A DNA stretch of 40,281 bases from Desulfovibrio sp. (GTDB lineage Bacteria; Desulfobacterota; Desulfovibrionia; Desulfovibrionales; Desulfovibrionaceae): assembly GCA_031269345.1 (NCBI GenBank), contig JAISZH010000183.1, positions 1 through 40,281 on the forward strand, written 5' to 3'. A program made the translations under genes and the position numbers. A model generated the notes under the pieces. The model saw only the letters and a list, made by a program, of their open reading frames with translations, did no database searches and was not told the DNA's origin. Shown here in pieces: positions 8,876 through 40,096 of this stretch. Position 1 is the stretch's first letter, and every line of letters starts with the position of its first letter.

Positions 8876-9661
<786 letters not shown>

Positions 9662-9681
9662 CCAGGAAAAGCCTGGTTTTT
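9662..9681 (+). terminator. possible weak intrinsic terminator between ribE and ribBA
   Basis: CCAGG (9662-9666) and CCTGG (9672-9676) form a five-base stem with a five-base loop, followed directly by TTTTT (9677-9681). The stem is short, so termination would be partial at best. It could lower ribBA expression relative to ribD-ribE. It also resembles the start of the tail region of the E3 repeat. Confidence 0.4.
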
Positions 9682-9750
9682 CAAATAGTTATTGGTGGTG
9701 ATTTCGTTTCCGCCACCTCAATTCGCTTTCTATCGAAGGTGAATTGGTAT
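9665..9750 (+). repeat. partial copy of repeat E3 upstream of ribBA
   Basis: Bases 9698-9750 closely match the right-hand half of the E3 repeat at 35120-35172. They share the AATTCGCTTTCTATCGAAG core, a preceding CCGCCA, and the GAATTGGTAT end. The 30 bases before it, with a TTTTTCAAA run, resemble the middle of E3. The AT-rich hairpin at the left end of E3 is missing, so this is a truncated copy in the same orientation as the one before hmcE. It lies 74 bases upstream of the ribBA start. Confidence 0.65.
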
Positions 9751-16137: not shown

Positions 16138-16317
16138 TGTCGCGTCAAGCGGCAATAGAGCACTTAACGCTTGAAACGGTTCGCTTACGGCGGGCAAAGC
16201 CCGCCAGCTCCTGTTTCGCTGCAAGGATTTGCCCGCAAATCCTTGCAGAGCGTTTGTCAAGTGTGAAATTCTCCAGTCGCAAGCCCGCAAGAGGGTGCGC
16301 GCCGCCGCAGGCGGCGT
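16138..16317. repeat. copy of repeat E2 split by an inserted E1 element
   Basis: Bases 16138-16158 match the reverse complement of 22549-22569 at 19 of 21 positions. Bases 16275-16317 match the reverse complement of 22506-22548 at 40 of 43. In the 22.5-kb copy these two parts are contiguous. Here they are separated by 116 bases (16159-16274) that are an inverted copy of the E1 element. The dinucleotide AG is present on both sides of the insert. The palindromic GCCGCC-GCA-GGCGGC core is at 16301-16315. Confidence 0.75.
16159..16274 (-). repeat. composite palindromic repeat E1, full copy, minus strand
   Basis: This is the reverse-complement copy of the element at 9506-9629. It retains the GCAAGGATTTG hairpin, the GGCGGGC hairpin and the GAAACGG/CTGTTTC outer stem (one mismatch), and ends in AGAGCACTT on the left and AATTCTC on the right. 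Sequence identity over the 95-base shared core is 90 of 95 by hand count. It interrupts a copy of repeat E2. Confidence 0.85.
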
Positions 16318-16445
16318 GCGCGCGGTAAAAAACCGCGTTTATTGCCGTGCGATCTTATCGCTTAAAACTAAGCTAATGCGTAGTTTTAAGCGATACATGG
16401 CAGTAGCTCGAACCCGGATAAAAAAAGCCTGAAACAGCCTCAAAT
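16318..16445 (+). other. hairpin-rich region upstream of the lon promoter
   Basis: CGCGGT (16321-16326) and ACCGCG (16332-16337) form a short hairpin followed by TTT, which could be a weak terminator for holA. A perfect 15-base inverted repeat follows: TATCGCTTAAAACTA at 16356-16370 faces its complement at 16381-16395 around a ten-base loop. A 17-base direct repeat (AAAGCCTGAAACAGCCT) appears at 16424-16440 and again at 16451-16467, the second copy lying between the lon -35 and -10 boxes. Confidence 0.6.
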
Positions 16446-22404: not shown

Positions 22405-22610
22405 GGTTACTGATTTCTGCAGAAATCAGTAATGAGATGTCACGCCTGTACTGTCATAGCAGGCGTGAAGATCGCAAAGCAAAAAACACAGTTTTTGCTT
22501 TGCTCACGCCGCCTGCGGCGGCGCGCACCCCCCTGCGGGGTTGCGACTATTGTCGCGTGACGCGACAGTAAACGCAAATTGGCATCAATAGCTAAACTGC
22601 TCTAACAGAA
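22405..22610. repeat. block of consecutive palindromes including repeat E2
   Basis: Five or more palindromes follow each other between two divergent genes. They are: a perfect 26-base palindrome at 22407-22432 (arms TTACTGATTTCTG); CACGCCTG (22441) facing CAGGCGTG (22460-22467); GCAAAGCAAAAA (22474-22485) facing TTTTTGCTTTGC (22492-22503); GCCGCC-TGC-GGCGGC (22508-22522); and TGTCGCG-TGA-CGCGACA (22551-22567). The last two make up repeat E2, whose split copy is at 16138-16317. The block ends with AACTGCTCTA, the terminal motif of repeat E1. The remaining bases of the 303-base gap show nothing else. Confidence 0.8.
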
Positions 22611-31999: not shown

Positions 32000-32375
32000 C
32001 AGCTTGCAAACGGCGCAGTCCGGAAATTATCCGGCCAGACAAGTCGTACCCTGTTTCCCCGTCCTGAAAAAAATATGCATTTCCCGGCTTGCAAAAAATT
32101 ATACTTTGCATTAATGGAGTATACAGCCATGTTACATTGCATCAATGCGCGAGATAAAAAATATTCCTGCCATGTATGCGGGCATACCTGCCGTTCCATG
32201 GGTTTTCTGCCTCTATCTCCGTCCGGCGTTATATTACGATAAAACATATCCACAATGTAATAAAAAGTCAGCAGGGTATCTGACATGAAGCATAAAGTCC
32301 ATCCGCTGCACCGGATGCATCCCGCAAGCGGAGAAATTTCCCGCTTGAGACGTCTTGCGGGTCTTAACCATACTG

Positions 32376-32515
32376 ATACCAATTTGCTTGCGACAGAAAG
32401 CGAAATGGGATGGCGGAGGCGAAGCCGGCGCCCGCAAATTTTTGAAAAACCAGGCGCCTGTTTTTCAAAAACTTTGGCGTCTCGCATTCAAACTCGTTTG
32501 AATGCAACTTGGTAT
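32376..32515 (-). repeat. composite palindromic repeat E3, inverted copy before hmcB
   Basis: This 140-base element is bounded by ATACCAA (32376-32382) and TTGGTAT (32509-32515). It is the reverse complement of 35032-35172, with roughly 90 % identity by hand alignment and three small gaps. Internal hairpins include GCATTCAAAC facing GTTTGAATGC near 32484-32505 and a TTTTTGAAAAA/TTTTTCAAAAA pair. It ends 14 bases before the hmcB start, directly against the GAGGG ribosome-binding site, so it forms part of the hmc leader. Confidence 0.85.
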
Positions 32516-32529
32516 GAGGGATTTGCCGC

Positions 32530-33636
32530 ATGCGACGCAGAAAATTCCTGTCCCTGATCAGCGCCGGCAGTTTGGGTACGGCCCTCGCCCCCCGAACTGG
32601 GACCGCGGCAGCGACCATTTCCGGACACCCGGAGACACTCGGCGTCCTGCATGACAGCGCACTCTGCATCGGGTGTCGCAAATGCGAAGCCGCCTGCCGG
32701 GAAGTGAACAACCTGCCCACGCCGGACAAATATAAAACCCCGGAAAAACCCTTTACGGACCTTTCCGTGCTGGAGCGAAAACGCCGCACGGACTTCCAGA
32801 GATTCACGGTCGTCAACAAGTATCGGAGCAAAGACGGACGGACTGTATTCCGCAAGTTCCAGTGCAACCATTGTCAGGAACCAGCCTGCGCCTCGGCCTG
32901 CTTTGTGCGGGCTTTGGTGAAAACGCCGCAGGGGCCGGTAATCTACAAGCCGGATCTGTGTGTGGGCTGTCGCTACTGTATGATTGCCTGTCCTTATTAC
33001 GTCCCGGCCTATGACTACGGCAACGCCGGCAATCCCCTGGTCTACAAATGCACCATGTGCGCGCCGCGTCTTGCGCGAGGCCAGGCGCCAGGTTGCGTGG
33101 AGAACTGTCCGACGGACGCCCTTGCCTTCGGCAGGCGCCTTGACCTGTTGGAGCTTGCCCGCGCGCGCATAGCCGCTCACCCCGGCCGCTATACGCCGCG
33201 CATCTACGGCGAGCAGGAAATGGGCGGAACGAACTGGCTCTATCTTTCCCCGGTTCCGCATGAGGAACTGGGACAGCCCAGGCTCGGCAAAATCCCGGCC
33301 CCGGAACTCACATCCGGCGCACTGGGGGCCGTAGCCATAGTGGCCGGGCTCTGGCCGGCGTTTCTGGGTGGCCTCTATTGCATCAGCAGGCGACGGGACA
33401 AAACAGCGGAACAGGATGCCGCGCTGGCCGCCGCAACGGCGCGGGAAACGGCCGAGGCCGAGGCGCAGGAAACATTGCGACAGGCCCTCGCCAAGGCGGA
33501 GAAAGAAAAAGAAGCGGCCATTGCGCGCGAAGTGAAAAAAGCCAGGGAGGAAGCCGCTCGCGAGTTTGAGGAAAAAGCCGCGCCACAGGCAAAAGAAGAG
33601 AGCACGCCGCCCCCGGCAGGAGAACCCTCCTCATGA
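32530..33636 (+). CDS. hmcB: Hmc complex periplasmic 4x[4Fe-4S] subunit
   Basis: HmcB is the Fe-S subunit that links cytochrome HmcA to the membrane part of the Hmc complex. The N-terminus MRRRKFLSLIS is a twin-arginine signal, so it is exported folded. Four ferredoxin clusters are readable: Cys46-49-52-56, Cys112-115-120-124, Cys144-147-150-154 and Cys174-177-189-193. A hydrophobic anchor at about 263-285 is followed by an Ala/Glu/Lys-rich coiled coil (290-355) and a proline-rich tail. Length 368 aa agrees with HmcB. The ATG at 32530 has GAGGG ten bases upstream. It overlaps hmcC by four bases. Confidence 0.92.
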   Translation: MRRRKFLSLISAGSLGTALAPRTGTAAATISGHPETLGVLHDSALCIGCRKCEAACREVNNLPTPDKYKTPEKPFTDLSVLERKRRTDFQRFTVVNKYRSKDGRTVFRKFQCNHCQEPACASACFVRALVKTPQGPVIYKPDLCVGCRYCMIACPYYVPAYDYGNAGNPLVYKCTMCAPRLARGQAPGCVENCPTDALAFGRRLDLLELARARIAAHPGRYTPRIYGEQEMGGTNWLYLSPVPHEELGQPRLGKIPAPELTSGALGAVAIVAGLWPAFLGGLYCISRRRDKTAEQDAALAAATARETAEAEAQETLRQALAKAEKEKEAAIAREVKKAREEAAREFEEKAAPQAKEESTPPPAGEPSS

Positions 33637-34814
33637 ACGCCACTACGGACAGAAAAAAAACCGCCCTGTTGGAACTGTTGCGCACACCCGGCAACATTCT
33701 TACCGCTTTCATCCTGGCCCTGGGCCTTTGCATCACCGTGCTGCGCTTCACCAAAGGCCTGGCTGGAGTGACGAACCTTAACGACAACTATCCCTGGGGC
33801 ATATGGATAAGCTTTGATCTGCTCTGCGGCGTAGCCCTGGCCGCCGGCGGCTATGCCGCCACCACCGCCTGCCATCTTTTCGGACTCAAAGATTTCCGCA
33901 CATCCGTGCGTCCGGCCGTAACCTCGGCCTTCCTCGGCTATGCCTTTGTGGTCCTCGCCCTGCACTACGACGTGGGCCAACCCTGGCGTCTGGTCTATCC
34001 GATCTTTCTCTCGCAGGGGACGAGCAGCGTGCTTTTTGAAGTCGGTCTGTGCGTATTCATATATCTCTCCGTGCTGGCGCTGGAATGGTCAATTGCGGTC
34101 TTTGAAAGGCTGGGCTGGAAAAAAGCCCGCGCCCGCATCGTCCGGCTGACCATTCCCCTGACTGTGCTGGGGGTAATCTTGTCCACCATGCACCAATCCT
34201 CGCTTGGAGCGCTGTACCTGATCGCCCCGTCCAAAATGCATCCTCTCTGGTATTCTCCTTTTATCCCGGTGTTCTTTTTTGTCTCCAGCATCTTCGCCGG
34301 CATGAGCATGGTCATTTTCGAGGGAAGTCTGGCCCATCGTTTCCTGCGCGGACAGATGGACGAGGAACACATCCGGCGGGGTGACGCCGTAGTCTTCGGT
34401 TTCGGCAAGGCCGCCTCCATTACCATGCTGGGTTACCTCCTCATCCGCCTGTACGGCGTTGCCCTGGACGACAACTGGAGGTTTCTGCCCACCGGCTACG
34501 GTCTGTGGTTTATTGCGGAACTCGCGGGTTTTGTGGCCTTGCCTTCCTTTCTGTACGCCTTGGGAGTGCGGGAAAAAAACACGCGCCGCATCCGCTTTGC
34601 CGCGCTTCTCACCATTGCCGGCATTGTGCTGAACCGCTTCAACGTCAGCCTGGTGGCCTTCAACTGGCAACTGGCCCCGGAGGAAAAATACTTCCCCCAC
34701 TGGATGGAAATAGCCGTTTCCGCGTTCATCGTGACGCTGATCATCACCGCCTACCGCCTTATCTGCGCTTATATGCCGATACTGCGCGATGATCCGGATT
34801 TTGAAACGCACTAA
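33633..34814 (+). CDS. hmcC: Hmc complex NrfD-like integral membrane subunit
   Basis: HmcC belongs to the NrfD/HybB (PsrC-like) family of quinone-interacting membrane proteins. The 393-aa protein has about ten hydrophobic segments spread over residues 18-385, with short charged loops. The segments NDNYPWGIWISFDLLCGVAL and LSTMHQSSLGALYLIAPSK are characteristic of the HybB/NrfD type. It starts within the hmcB stop (ATGA), so the two are translated together. In D. vulgaris the equivalent protein binds the Fe-S subunit at the periplasmic side; whether it moves protons is not settled. Confidence 0.93.
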   Translation: MNATTDRKKTALLELLRTPGNILTAFILALGLCITVLRFTKGLAGVTNLNDNYPWGIWISFDLLCGVALAAGGYAATTACHLFGLKDFRTSVRPAVTSAFLGYAFVVLALHYDVGQPWRLVYPIFLSQGTSSVLFEVGLCVFIYLSVLALEWSIAVFERLGWKKARARIVRLTIPLTVLGVILSTMHQSSLGALYLIAPSKMHPLWYSPFIPVFFFVSSIFAGMSMVIFEGSLAHRFLRGQMDEEHIRRGDAVVFGFGKAASITMLGYLLIRLYGVALDDNWRFLPTGYGLWFIAELAGFVALPSFLYALGVREKNTRRIRFAALLTIAGIVLNRFNVSLVAFNWQLAPEEKYFPHWMEIAVSAFIVTLIITAYRLICAYMPILRDDPDFETH

Positions 34815-34858
34815 AGGCGCATGCCGCATGCCCACGCAAGCGGCGGGAGAACGGATTT

Positions 34859-35002
34859 ATGGACAATGTATTTTACTCGTTGCAGGATTTCATGCTCCAC
34901 ACCAAGACCCTGACCTATATTCTCATGGGTCTTGGTCTGCCGGCCATGTTGGGCTGGTGGCTTTTTCTGACGGGGCGGGACGAAGAAATCCGCAAATACT
35001 GA
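34859..35002 (+). CDS. hmcD: Hmc complex small membrane subunit
   Basis: This 47-aa protein is easily missed. It has a short N-terminal part, one membrane segment (about residues 20-40, TYILMGLGLPAMLGWWLFL) and a charged end (GRDEEIRKY). Size, single span and position between the NrfD-like and cytochrome-b-like genes match HmcD of D. vulgaris. ATG 34859 is preceded by GGGAGA nine bases upstream. It starts 44 bases after hmcC. A 203-base gap that holds repeat E3 then separates it from hmcE, an interruption not expected inside this operon. Confidence 0.85.
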   Translation: MDNVFYSLQDFMLHTKTLTYILMGLGLPAMLGWWLFLTGRDEEIRKY

Positions 35003-35031
35003 ATCTGGCCCGTGGCCGTCCGCGTCGTGTG

Positions 35032-35172
35032 ATACCGAGCTGCATTCAAACGTGTTTGAATGCAGACGCCAAAGTTTTTGAAAAACAGGCGAAGCCCGAT
35101 TTTTCAAAAACCTGCGGGCGGCGGCTTCGCCTCCGCCATCCCAATTCGCTTTCTATCGAAGCGAATTGGGAT
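35032..35172 (+). repeat. composite palindromic repeat E3, plus copy inside the hmc operon
   Basis: Four hairpins stand in a row within 141 bases. Arms are: TGCATTCAAAC (35041-35051) facing 35054-35064; GTTTTTGAAAAA (35074-35085) facing TTTTTCAAAAAC (35100-35111); a GGCGG/CCGCC stem with TTC loop near 35116-35136; and a perfect 14-base stem at 35138-35151 facing 35159-35172 with a seven-base loop. The outer ends are ATACCGA and TTGGGAT. It is the inverted partner of 32376-32515. It contains no reading frame. Confidence 0.9.
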
Positions 35173-35176
35173 GAGA

Positions 35177-35205: not shown

Positions 35206-35895
35206 ATGAAACAAACACTAGCTTTTCTTGCCGGACCGGGGCTGACCGCCGCTCTGCTGATCTTTTTCTGCGGACTGACGTTCAAGCTGGTCTGGTATTT
35301 CAGGGGACTTGACTGGCGGCTGGAGCGCGTTGCCTACCGGCCGCAGATGTCCGCCGGCATGGCGGGCGGCCTGCATTCCATCTACAGATGGCTTTTGCCT
35401 TACGGCACACACGGCTGGCGCTCCCATCCCCTCCTGACTCTGTATTTTTTCCTGTTCCACGCGGGACTTGTTCTCCTGCCTCCCTTTCTTCTGGGACATA
35501 CCGTTGTCTTCGGGCAAATCTTCGGCTTCAGTCCGCCCGCCCTACCCCAGCTTGCAGGGGACGTGCTGGCGGTGCTGTCCCTGATCGGCGGCCTTCTTCT
35601 TCTCCTGCGCCGCGTCTCCCTGCCGGAGACGCGCCTGCTCGGAACATTCAGCGATTACGCGCTTTCGTCTATTGTTCTGCTGGTGCTGGTCAGCGGGCTT
35701 CTTGCCCGTATGCATACGGAAAACTACGATCTGTGGCTGCTCCTGCATATCGCGGCCGGTGAACTGACGCTGATTCTCGCGCCTTTCACCAAACTTTCCC
35801 ACATGGTTCTGTTTTTCGCCGCCCGTTGGCAACTGGGCGCCGATTACGCCGTTAAACGCGGCGGACACAGACGCGGCCCCTGTTTCCCATGGTAG
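35206..35895 (+). CDS. hmcE: Hmc complex cytochrome-b-like membrane subunit
   Basis: HmcE is an integral membrane subunit related to the gamma subunit of respiratory nitrate reductase and to DsrM/TmcC. The 229-aa protein has five or six hydrophobic segments. Histidines at the ends of the helices (FFLFHAGLVLL, LLLHIAAGELTL, KLSHMVLFF) are good candidates for b-haem ligands. ATG 35206 follows AAGGAGAA with ideal spacing; longer upstream reading in this frame passes through repeat E3 and is rejected. hmcF follows 29 bases later. It would carry electrons across the membrane between the HmcA/B side and HmcF. Confidence 0.9.
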   Translation: MKQTLAFLAGPGLTAALLIFFCGLTFKLVWYFRGLDWRLERVAYRPQMSAGMAGGLHSIYRWLLPYGTHGWRSHPLLTLYFFLFHAGLVLLPPFLLGHTVVFGQIFGFSPPALPQLAGDVLAVLSLIGGLLLLLRRVSLPETRLLGTFSDYALSSIVLLVLVSGLLARMHTENYDLWLLLHIAAGELTLILAPFTKLSHMVLFFAARWQLGADYAVKRGGHRRGPCFPW

Positions 35896-37395: not shown

Positions 37396-39072
37396 ATGGT
37401 AAAAGGGTTTATACGGCAAAGCGCGCTCATTTTTACCGCGCTGGCTTTCTGTCTTGTTTTTTCTGCCGGGGGCAGAGCTTTATCCGCATCCCCGACCGAA
37501 AAGAGCGCGGCGGCCGCGCGGGAAAAAACCGGTATTCTGCGCATCAAGCCGGTTGCCGTGCAAGAGGGAGAACTTGCCCCTGTCCCCTTTGATCACGAAC
37601 GGCACACGTCCGCGTTAGACGGCATCCGCTCCTGTGCAAACTGCCACGAAAAGCGCGATACCGACGCTTATTCCCCGGTTTTTAAATCGGTGGAAGCCTC
37701 GGATGCAAAAGGGCGCATGCTGGAATTCCACAACGCCTGCGGAAGCTGCCACGCCCAATTTCGGGAAGGAAACAAGCCATCCGGGCCGGTGGGCGCGCAA
37801 TGCCGCTCCTGCCACACCGCTCCAGTTCCAGGGGGAACGCGCGCCGACGGCGGACTGGACCTTTTTCTCCATTACCGGCATATCACGGCCATGGCTTTTG
37901 ACACCCAATCAGACCGGCCATGCGCAACCTGCCACCATGAGATCAAGACCCCGCTGCCCGGACCGCTGACGGAGGCTTCCTGTAGAAGCTGCCACAGGGA
38001 AAACCCCGCCGGCAAACCGCTCTCCTTTGCAAAACTCGCCCACAACCGCTGTATTTCCTGCCATCTGGACAAGGCCGCGGGCACCCAGGCAAAAGGTCCA
38101 GTCACCTGCGCCGGATGCCATGACCCAGACCTGAAGAAAACTTACACGCGCCCGGTCACATTCCCCCGTCTCGCCGCCGGGCAGCCTGAGGCCTTACTGA
38201 TGCCTGCGCGGGAGCAAAAACTTCCCATCTCCACACGGGTTCCGGAGGCAACAAGTCAGGAAAACACCCAAAGGGGCGCGACGGGGCCGGTCGCATTCAA
38301 CCACGCCCTGCACGAGCGCAACACCGCCGCCTGCCGAAGCTGCCACCACGCGGCCACGGAAGCCTGCTCGGCATGCCACACCCTGGAAGGGACCGAAGGC
38401 AGGCCCACGCTGTTCCAAGTCATGCACGCGCCTGCTTCGGAGCGGTCCTGCTTCGGCTGCCACGAAACGCGAAAAACCCGGGAGGAGAACTGCGCAGCCT
38501 GCCATACACCCCGGAAAGCCGAGCGCGTCTTTGCCTCAGACTGCGCCCTCTGTCATGCCGTTCTCCCTGTTGACACATCGCATATGGCAAGCGCCGGGGA
38601 AAAGAAAGCCCTGGCCGAAAAACTCCTCGCCGCCCGCGCGGCCGCGCGGCCAAAAAGCGTGCCCAAGGCACCGGAAACCGTGTTCATCGGATCGATCAGC
38701 AAGGAATATGCGCCTGCAATCTTTCCACACGGACGTATCGTCAAGGCGCTGGAAAAGGGGATTACGGATTTCTCGCCCGCCTGGTCCGGCCTGCACGCCG
38801 CCAAAGACGCCCTGTGCGGTTTTTGCCACCACTACAGCCCTGTAGCGGCCAACCCGCAACGCTGCGTAAGCTGCCACGCTCCCTACTTACCCACCGGGAA
38901 AACGCCGGACCGGAAAATGTGGGAGAAAGGCGCGCCACGGGGCTTGAAACAGGCCTATCACCAACAGTGCATGGGGTGCCACGAACGGATGAACCTGAAA
39001 GAACCGGCGTCCGCCGATTGCGTAGCCTGTCACGCCCTGCCCGCTGAAGCTCATTTGCAGGCCGGACAGTAA
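37396..39072 (+). CDS. hmcA: sixteen-haem high-molecular-weight cytochrome c
   Basis: This 558-aa protein carries a Sec signal peptide (charged MVKGFIRQ, a hydrophobic core, cut near Ala31) and sixteen CxxCH motifs, the number found in HmcA of D. vulgaris. Histidine pairs ahead of motifs, such as FDHERH and FNHALHERN, are the usual distal ligands for bis-His haems of the c3 type. It is periplasmic and would take electrons from hydrogenases through type I c3 and pass them to HmcB. ATG 37396 follows AAGGATAGG. Notably it is the last gene here; in D. vulgaris it is the first. Confidence 0.94.
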   Translation: MVKGFIRQSALIFTALAFCLVFSAGGRALSASPTEKSAAAAREKTGILRIKPVAVQEGELAPVPFDHERHTSALDGIRSCANCHEKRDTDAYSPVFKSVEASDAKGRMLEFHNACGSCHAQFREGNKPSGPVGAQCRSCHTAPVPGGTRADGGLDLFLHYRHITAMAFDTQSDRPCATCHHEIKTPLPGPLTEASCRSCHRENPAGKPLSFAKLAHNRCISCHLDKAAGTQAKGPVTCAGCHDPDLKKTYTRPVTFPRLAAGQPEALLMPAREQKLPISTRVPEATSQENTQRGATGPVAFNHALHERNTAACRSCHHAATEACSACHTLEGTEGRPTLFQVMHAPASERSCFGCHETRKTREENCAACHTPRKAERVFASDCALCHAVLPVDTSHMASAGEKKALAEKLLAARAAARPKSVPKAPETVFIGSISKEYAPAIFPHGRIVKALEKGITDFSPAWSGLHAAKDALCGFCHHYSPVAANPQRCVSCHAPYLPTGKTPDRKMWEKGAPRGLKQAYHQQCMGCHERMNLKEPASADCVACHALPAEAHLQAGQ

Positions 39073-39141: not shown

Positions 39142-39420
39142 GTGCCCCTGCTCAAACAAAAAAAACATGCCTCGGTGTTTAAGGCCAAGGTGGTCTTGGC
39201 GGCGCTTTCCGGCGAAAAACCCATTGCGGAACTGAATTCAGAATTCTGGGTCCATCGGACGCATATCCACCGATGGGTCAAGAGCCCAAGGACTCAACGG
39301 CAGGCATTTTTCCGGCGAAGTCAAAACGGAAGAGGCGAAGAGAGCAAAGGAGATCAACACTCTGCACGACAGAACCGGCCAGCTCACAGTGGAACGCGAT
39401 TTTTTAGCTGAAGCCTGGGG
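39142..39420 (+). pseudogene. IS3-family transposase OrfA remnant, frameshifted
   Basis: The N-terminal part shows the OrfA helix-turn-helix: FKAKVVLAALSGEKPIAEL, then VHRTHIHRWVKS. At about 39305-39311 the frame shifts; the continuation in another frame reads FSGEVKTEEAKRAKEIN and then TGQLTVERDFLAEAW, the leucine-zipper end of OrfA. One frameshift therefore splits the protein. A GTG at 39142 is the apparent start. Confidence 0.8.
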
Positions 39421-39445
39421 GAGCCGTAAGCCTGTCCCGCAGGCA

Positions 39446-39993
39446 GAGCATTGTCCGTACAGATCATGCCAAGCTCTGCCTTGTCCGCCAATGTGCGTTG
39501 CCCGGCATCTCCCGCTCCGGCCTGTATTCACGCGCCCAAGGGCAAATCGGATCTGAATCTGGTTCTGATGCGCGGGCATCACGTACATCCCCATGCGCAA
39601 ATACTTCTTGTACTTGGTGGCCATCATGGACTGGCACAGCCAAAAAGTCCTGTCTTTGCGTCTTGCCAACAGCATGGACACAGATTTTTGCATCGCGGCT
39701 CTGGAAGAGACCTTGACGAAATACGCTTCTCCGGATATCTTCAATCCCGACCAAGGCAGTCAGTTTATCAGTTTTGCGTTTACCAATGTCTTACGCGAGC
39801 AGGGTATCCGCATCTCTATGGGCGGACATGGTCGCTGGGTGGACAATGTTTTTATCAAACGCCTCTGGGGCTCACTGCAGTATGAACGCGTGTATCTCAC
39901 GCCTACGAAACCGGCTCGGAAGCCCAGGCAGGTATCGACAGGTAGATCGACTTTGACGACCACCGGCGACCCCATGGCAGCTTGGTGGGATAA
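39446..39993 (+). pseudogene. IS3-family transposase OrfB remnant, deleted and mutated
   Basis: The start of OrfB is readable (AKLCLVRQCALPGISRSGLY, near 39470-39530). An internal deletion then joins it to the catalytic domain, ITYIPMRKYFLYLVAIMDWHS. Of the DDE triad only the second Asp (DQGSQF) remains: the first is Gly (GITYIP instead of DITYIP) and the Glu is Lys (FIKRLW instead of FIERLW). A frameshift near 39895 and a TAG at 39943 break the C-terminus, which would have read HRRPHGSLVG. The transposase is dead. Confidence 0.8.
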
Positions 39994-40096
39994 CCTCGGA
40001 TATGTACAATAAGCAGGATTTTTTAAAGGCAACCTGATAAGAGAAAAGACAAACCAAGAAACCGCTGTTACCTGTCCGAACAACGGAGACCACCTC

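Follow-up and report, generated by a model that had tools for sequence, protein, structure and literature searches.

The four-hairpin repeat E3, two inverted copies of which surround hmcB, hmcC and hmcD in the 40,281-nucleotide stretch of DNA analysed here (the window), is most probably a MITE that is moved in trans by a transposase of the IS630 family, duplicates a TNA target and is tolerated in frame inside genes; we assign to this reading a probability of roughly 0.87. That the repeat may be mobile and non-autonomous was already supposed in the first-pass annotation of the window, and this idea is now strongly supported by the number of dispersed copies, terminal inverted repeats, TNA duplications and empty sites in relatives, with further support from a related element nested inside an E3 copy and from an IS630-type partner having common ends with E3. 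All these features, as well as the copies lying in frame within genes, are read directly from nucleotide sequences. The window represents contig C122 of one fragmented Desulfovibrionaceae assembly (G000; 2.63 Mb, 203 contigs), and the closest matches to its hmc locus among named genomes come from Desulfovibrio and Desulfovibrionaceae assemblies.

The inverted pair noticed at the first reading is real: copy 1 (32377–32514, plus strand, 138 bp) and copy 2 (35033–35171, minus strand, 139 bp) agree at 128 of 142 aligned positions. As annotated, copy 1 adjoins the ribosome-binding site of hmcB (32530–33636), stopping 15 bp upstream of its ATG codon at 32530, and copy 2 lies in the gap of 203 bp that separates the stop codon of hmcD (35000–35002) from the ATG of hmcE at 35206. 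Other genes of the plus strand used as context are hmcC (33633–34814), hmcD (34859–35002) and hmcE (35206–35895). The gene hmcA (37396–39072) is found here after hmcF, giving the order B-C-D-E-F-A; in relatives it directly precedes hmcB. Immediately downstream of hmcA (39142–40012) there are open reading frames which, judged by eye, resemble a broken IS3-type transposase.

The presence of four hairpins per copy was also borne out. In copy 1 they occupy positions 32379–32408, 32412–32432, 32436–32474 and 32484–32505 of the plus strand, the first of them being mobile alone as a 34-bp unit in the sister genome G003. Compared with shuffled sequences, copy 2 folds far better (z = −6.8), and the advantage of copy 1 is only moderate (z = −2.7). 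When 26 copies are aligned, the four helices have 94.4% of their cells paired and seven pairs changed on both sides, while sliding the helix partners by one column left no more than 56% of cells paired. The scores registered by cmsearch for copy 1 (152.8 bits, E = 2.7e-35) and copy 2 (158.2 bits, E = 1.3e-36) were obtained with a model whose alignment itself includes both of them.

It was suggested at the first reading that E3 now supplies leader RNA structures. In its general form this explanation implies that both copies, whatever their origin, are retained as leader or intergenic RNA affecting stability, attenuation or translation of hmc transcripts. Stable predicted folds and the small distance from copy 1 to the hmcB start, with a TGA duplication overlapping the ribosome-binding stretch, are in line with it, and an influence on transcript stability has been reported for ERIC repeats (PMC2229807). 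However, the same structure is present in E3 copies at unrelated sites, including those within genes, the region does not exceed shuffles in the number of terminator-like matches, and four distinct relatives have hmcD–hmcE gaps free of E3, which span 11, 11, 33 and 112 bp versus 203 bp here. These sizes were read from the sequences directly, as the hmcD and hmcE queries were out of frame in the gene-order search. The Rfam search for a leader RNA gave nothing. Thus, neither conservation at orthologous positions nor affiliation with a known RNA family, which characterise conserved leader RNAs and riboswitches, was found for E3. Since the hairpins are common to all copies, the relatives have no E3 between hmcD and hmcE and Rfam contains no match, the leader-RNA role is unsupported, and we regard it as very improbable. 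Local consequences of insertion are another matter: a polar effect on hmcE-F-A is possible, and the duplicated TGA in the ribosome-binding stretch of hmcB may influence translation of this gene.

Mobility of E3 is supported by its distribution. About 54 distinct places in the genome, bearing whole, partial or degenerate E3, were collected by a DNA search (40 scored copies), repeat analysis of the window and two peptide searches, and dozens of them had escaped the first-pass annotation. One such copy is in the window itself: it is decayed, belongs to the minus strand and extends approximately from 9607 to 9749, the recognisable part being about 9663–9749 (42.3 bits). Short length (138–141 bp), the absence of a transposase gene and this abundance correspond to what is expected for MITEs. 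Among 59 genomes searched, the native one included, E3 matches were registered in six, all of one genus. Copies abound in two of them, G003 and G008. A third, G006, contains a sister element that keeps the ends and has another middle part (L075, L081, L086 and L092, which have the same right end and plan), so the cargo amplified between common ends seems to vary from species to species. Spread by plasmids was also considered, and the plasmid records searched gave no match.

Besides E3, the window contains other repeats. A second multi-hairpin family at 9506–9662 and 16158–16251 has the form AGTTCACGAATGAAA...GCAAGGATTTGCGGGCAAATCCTTGC...CGGGCTTTGCCCGCCG and includes a 94-nt inverted pair (96%); similar sequence was seen within or beside E3 copies at loci L023, L030 and L142. 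One more inverted pair of 57 nt (16275–16331 and 22492–22548; 86% complementary) has many GC hairpins.

Being oriented alike, E3 copies read TNA-TACCAA...TTGGTA-TNA, i.e. they combine the terminal inverted repeats and the target-site duplication by which MITEs are recognised. The central base N is identical on the left and right in 40 of the 42 copies having TNA on both flanks, versus a mean of 15.9 agreements after shuffling, with none of 20,000 trials reaching 40. A longer inverted repeat would give complementary N, and such pairs were registered in no copy. The agreement in 40 of 42 cases and the absence of complementary pairs together testify to a 3-bp TNA target duplication. Both copies at hmc are flanked by TGA/TGA: the duplications assigned on the basis of these TNA statistics occupy positions 32374–32376 and 32515–32517 for copy 1, the latter lying within the GAGG-like ribosome-binding stretch of hmcB, and 35030–35032 and 35172–35174 for copy 2. 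The most direct evidence for target duplication is provided by locus L164 of G003, where a 109-bp element with E3 ends interrupts an E3 copy in the loop of its hairpin 1, so that CTGC-TGA-AAGC turned into CTGC-TAA-[element]-TGA-AAGC, the duplication having one changed base. This AT-rich element with E3 ends was observed in at least five more places of G003 (L165, L166, L168, L171 and L176).

In the same genome E3 ends bound even smaller units: a lone hairpin of 34 bp and a 69-bp fusion of both end hairpins. Near-perfect lone hairpins of 34 bp with TNA duplications are found at L160:758–797, L161:737–776 and L162:4095–4134, and they are possibly the smallest mobile unit of the E3 system. Occurrence of the end hairpin on its own, joined to the opposite end and as part of the complete 141-bp element, as well as the palindromic, dispersed and mosaic nature of E3, resembles REP/REPIN-like palindromes, which are moved by RAYT, a Y1 tyrosine transposase, through single-stranded DNA. 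Such elements have no target duplication, though, whereas a 3-bp duplication is present at nearly every intact E3 copy, and the E3 termini are common with those of a DDE transposase. Since both of these properties point to a DDE element, movement of E3 by RAYT seems to us very improbable.

The candidate DDE transposase was found in G003 next to the terminus TACCAAGTTG[CT]AATCAA. It was assigned to the IS630 family by NCBIfam (124.7 bits with a cut-off of 100) and spans two frames around nine consecutive A. Proteins 83% and 69% identical to it adjoin TACCAAGTTGCGATCAA in G140 and TACCAAGTTGCAATCAA in G138, respectively. Full-length cousins, with transposases 39–40% identical, measure 1096 bp in G085 (ends TACCA...TGGTA, duplication TCA/TCA) and 1095 bp in G087 (TACCA...TGGCA, TGA/TGA). 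A complete insertion sequence with both TACCAAGTTGC ends was not recovered, because the copies in G003 are truncated or run off the contig, and only these more distant cousins are complete. Terminal repeats common with an IS630 element, which are expected for an IS630-derived MITE, were found in sister species and not in G000, where our search revealed no intact transposase with E3-type ends. The IS630-type DDE_3 gene of this genome (L222) was tried as a partner and rejected as having no matching ends. An IS1031-like (IS5-type) transposase, suggested by the TNA target, was discarded too, as PF13340 matches in the genus have no E3-type ends. The other property expected for IS630 derivatives, a 2-bp TA duplication, is replaced in E3 by 3-bp TNA. 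IS630 and ISY100 duplicate TA (PMC2170065), thus the TNA of the E3 subgroup is a departure, and a limited literature search gave no description of a 3-bp TNA duplication in IS630.

Based on these data, one can assume, by analogy with RUP and IS630-Spn1, that an IS630-type transposase acting in trans was probably responsible for the spread of E3, and that E3 may be idle now in G000, where no matching transposase was found. In the proposed mechanism a string of four hairpins ending in TACCAA...TTGGTA would be recognised in trans by the DDE transposase of this family and inserted at a TNA trinucleotide, which becomes duplicated. Two copies at hmc would then be independent insertions, whose opposite orientation around hmcBCD is happenstance. 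It was suggested at the first reading that the pair could recombine and flip hmcBCD relative to hmcEFA. An invertible switch of this kind, turning the operon on and off, agrees with their inverted position and 90% identity, but is very improbable: relatives keep hmcB-C-D-E-F collinear in one gene order only, the copies have no more than 28 bp in common as an uninterrupted exact match, E3 pairs within 3 kb occur elsewhere in the genome as well and roughly at the frequency expected by chance (six seen versus about three expected by chance for 54 places in 2.63 Mb; P ~ 0.10), and no recombinase gene was noticed beside the pair among the listed open reading frames, as read by eye.

The consensus E3 together with the duplication makes up 144 bp, or 48 codons, and has one stop-free frame per strand. 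Such an insertion, when it occurs in coding sequence, could be translated through, which would let E3 copies persist not only between genes but also within conserved protein-coding ones. Candidates for in-frame location, picked by simple search for open reading frames, were considered only as such, and Pfam domains around the copies were then taken into account. In G000 in-frame copies were found in comEC (pieces of the Competence domain and Lactamase_B around the insert), a gene of an MMPL exporter, a gene in which radical-SAM domains flank the copy, cbiG (the N and mid domains of CbiG ahead of the element, the C domain behind it), hflX and a gene of a PMT-type glycosyltransferase. Those of G003 reside in an MBOAT gene and in one that encodes HisKA and receiver domains. 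Among genic copies a clean empty site is available for hflX only, which in this respect joins the hmcD–hmcE gap: the protein of the near relative G006 (89% identical) aligns on both sides of the insertion and has no E3, and in alignment with eight further members of the genus the E3 peptide is present only in G000, within a variable linker. The cbiG gene of G006 is also free of E3, but the adjoining stretch is missing there too. Directly upstream of E3 in cbiG of G000 (L301, contig C82) there are about 38 further in-frame codons, which are missing in G006 and resemble a stretch of another long open reading frame (G000:C121:1327–1440); perhaps this is a second in-frame repeat.

Judging by these genes, host proteins may tolerate the predicted E3 peptide. 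Extragenic copies showed a weak excess of open frames over simulated ones (33 versus 25.3 ± 3.3 and 37 versus 30.0 ± 3.0; P ~ 0.015 each), but we do not claim selection for open frames outside genes, because some of these copies came from a peptide search biased towards open frames and the copies share ancestry. A broader generalisation, to which we give even odds, is that E3 is a protein-coding palindromic element like those of Rickettsia, that an IS630-type TNA-duplicating subgroup moves units down to 34 bp, and that the 144-bp form persists partly owing to its 48 in-frame codons, which add a peptide to conserved proteins in a lineage remote from Rickettsia.

Among known systems, an analogy for movement in trans is offered by RUP of Streptococcus pneumoniae (107 bp, 108 copies), which is thought to be moved by IS630-Spn1 (PMC2229807). 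Like E3, it is a small non-coding repeat with terminal inverted repeats common with an IS630-family element, has TA at its very ends and inserts into other mobile elements; unlike E3, with its TNA target and one open frame per strand, it inserts at TA and none of its six frames is free of stops. The putative partner resembles IS630 and ISY100 in the combination of NCBIfam transpos_IS630 with Pfam DDE_3 beside E3-type termini and, in the G003 copy, in two-frame reading around an A-run, but those elements duplicate TA (PMC2170065), whereas the subgroup discussed here and its MITEs duplicate TNA. E3 directs attention to a subgroup of IS630 whose 3-bp TNA duplication is unusual. The hmc operon itself bears the footprints of two transposon insertions rather than a demonstrated switch. 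ERIC/RU-1 of enterobacteria (127 bp) is also a palindromic MITE, mostly intergenic, with some in-frame fusions (PMC2229807, PMC10969869); its ends are different, and it has no demonstrated relationship to E3. The best-known examples of palindromic elements placed in frame inside proteins come from Rickettsia; they are 105–146 bp long and lie in frame in protein genes (PMC2229807, PMC10969869). E3 has similar size, is palindromic and occurs both between genes and as in-frame fusions, with predicted translation, in conserved genes, although this likeness concerns behaviour only. The review PMC2229807 gives the target duplication of the Rickettsia elements as unknown, and neither it nor PMC10969869 names a transposase for them, whereas E3 has TNA duplications and a candidate IS630-type partner. 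A comparable family with visible duplication, empty sites and a candidate transposase thus makes both movement of such elements and their tolerance by host proteins testable at the bench.
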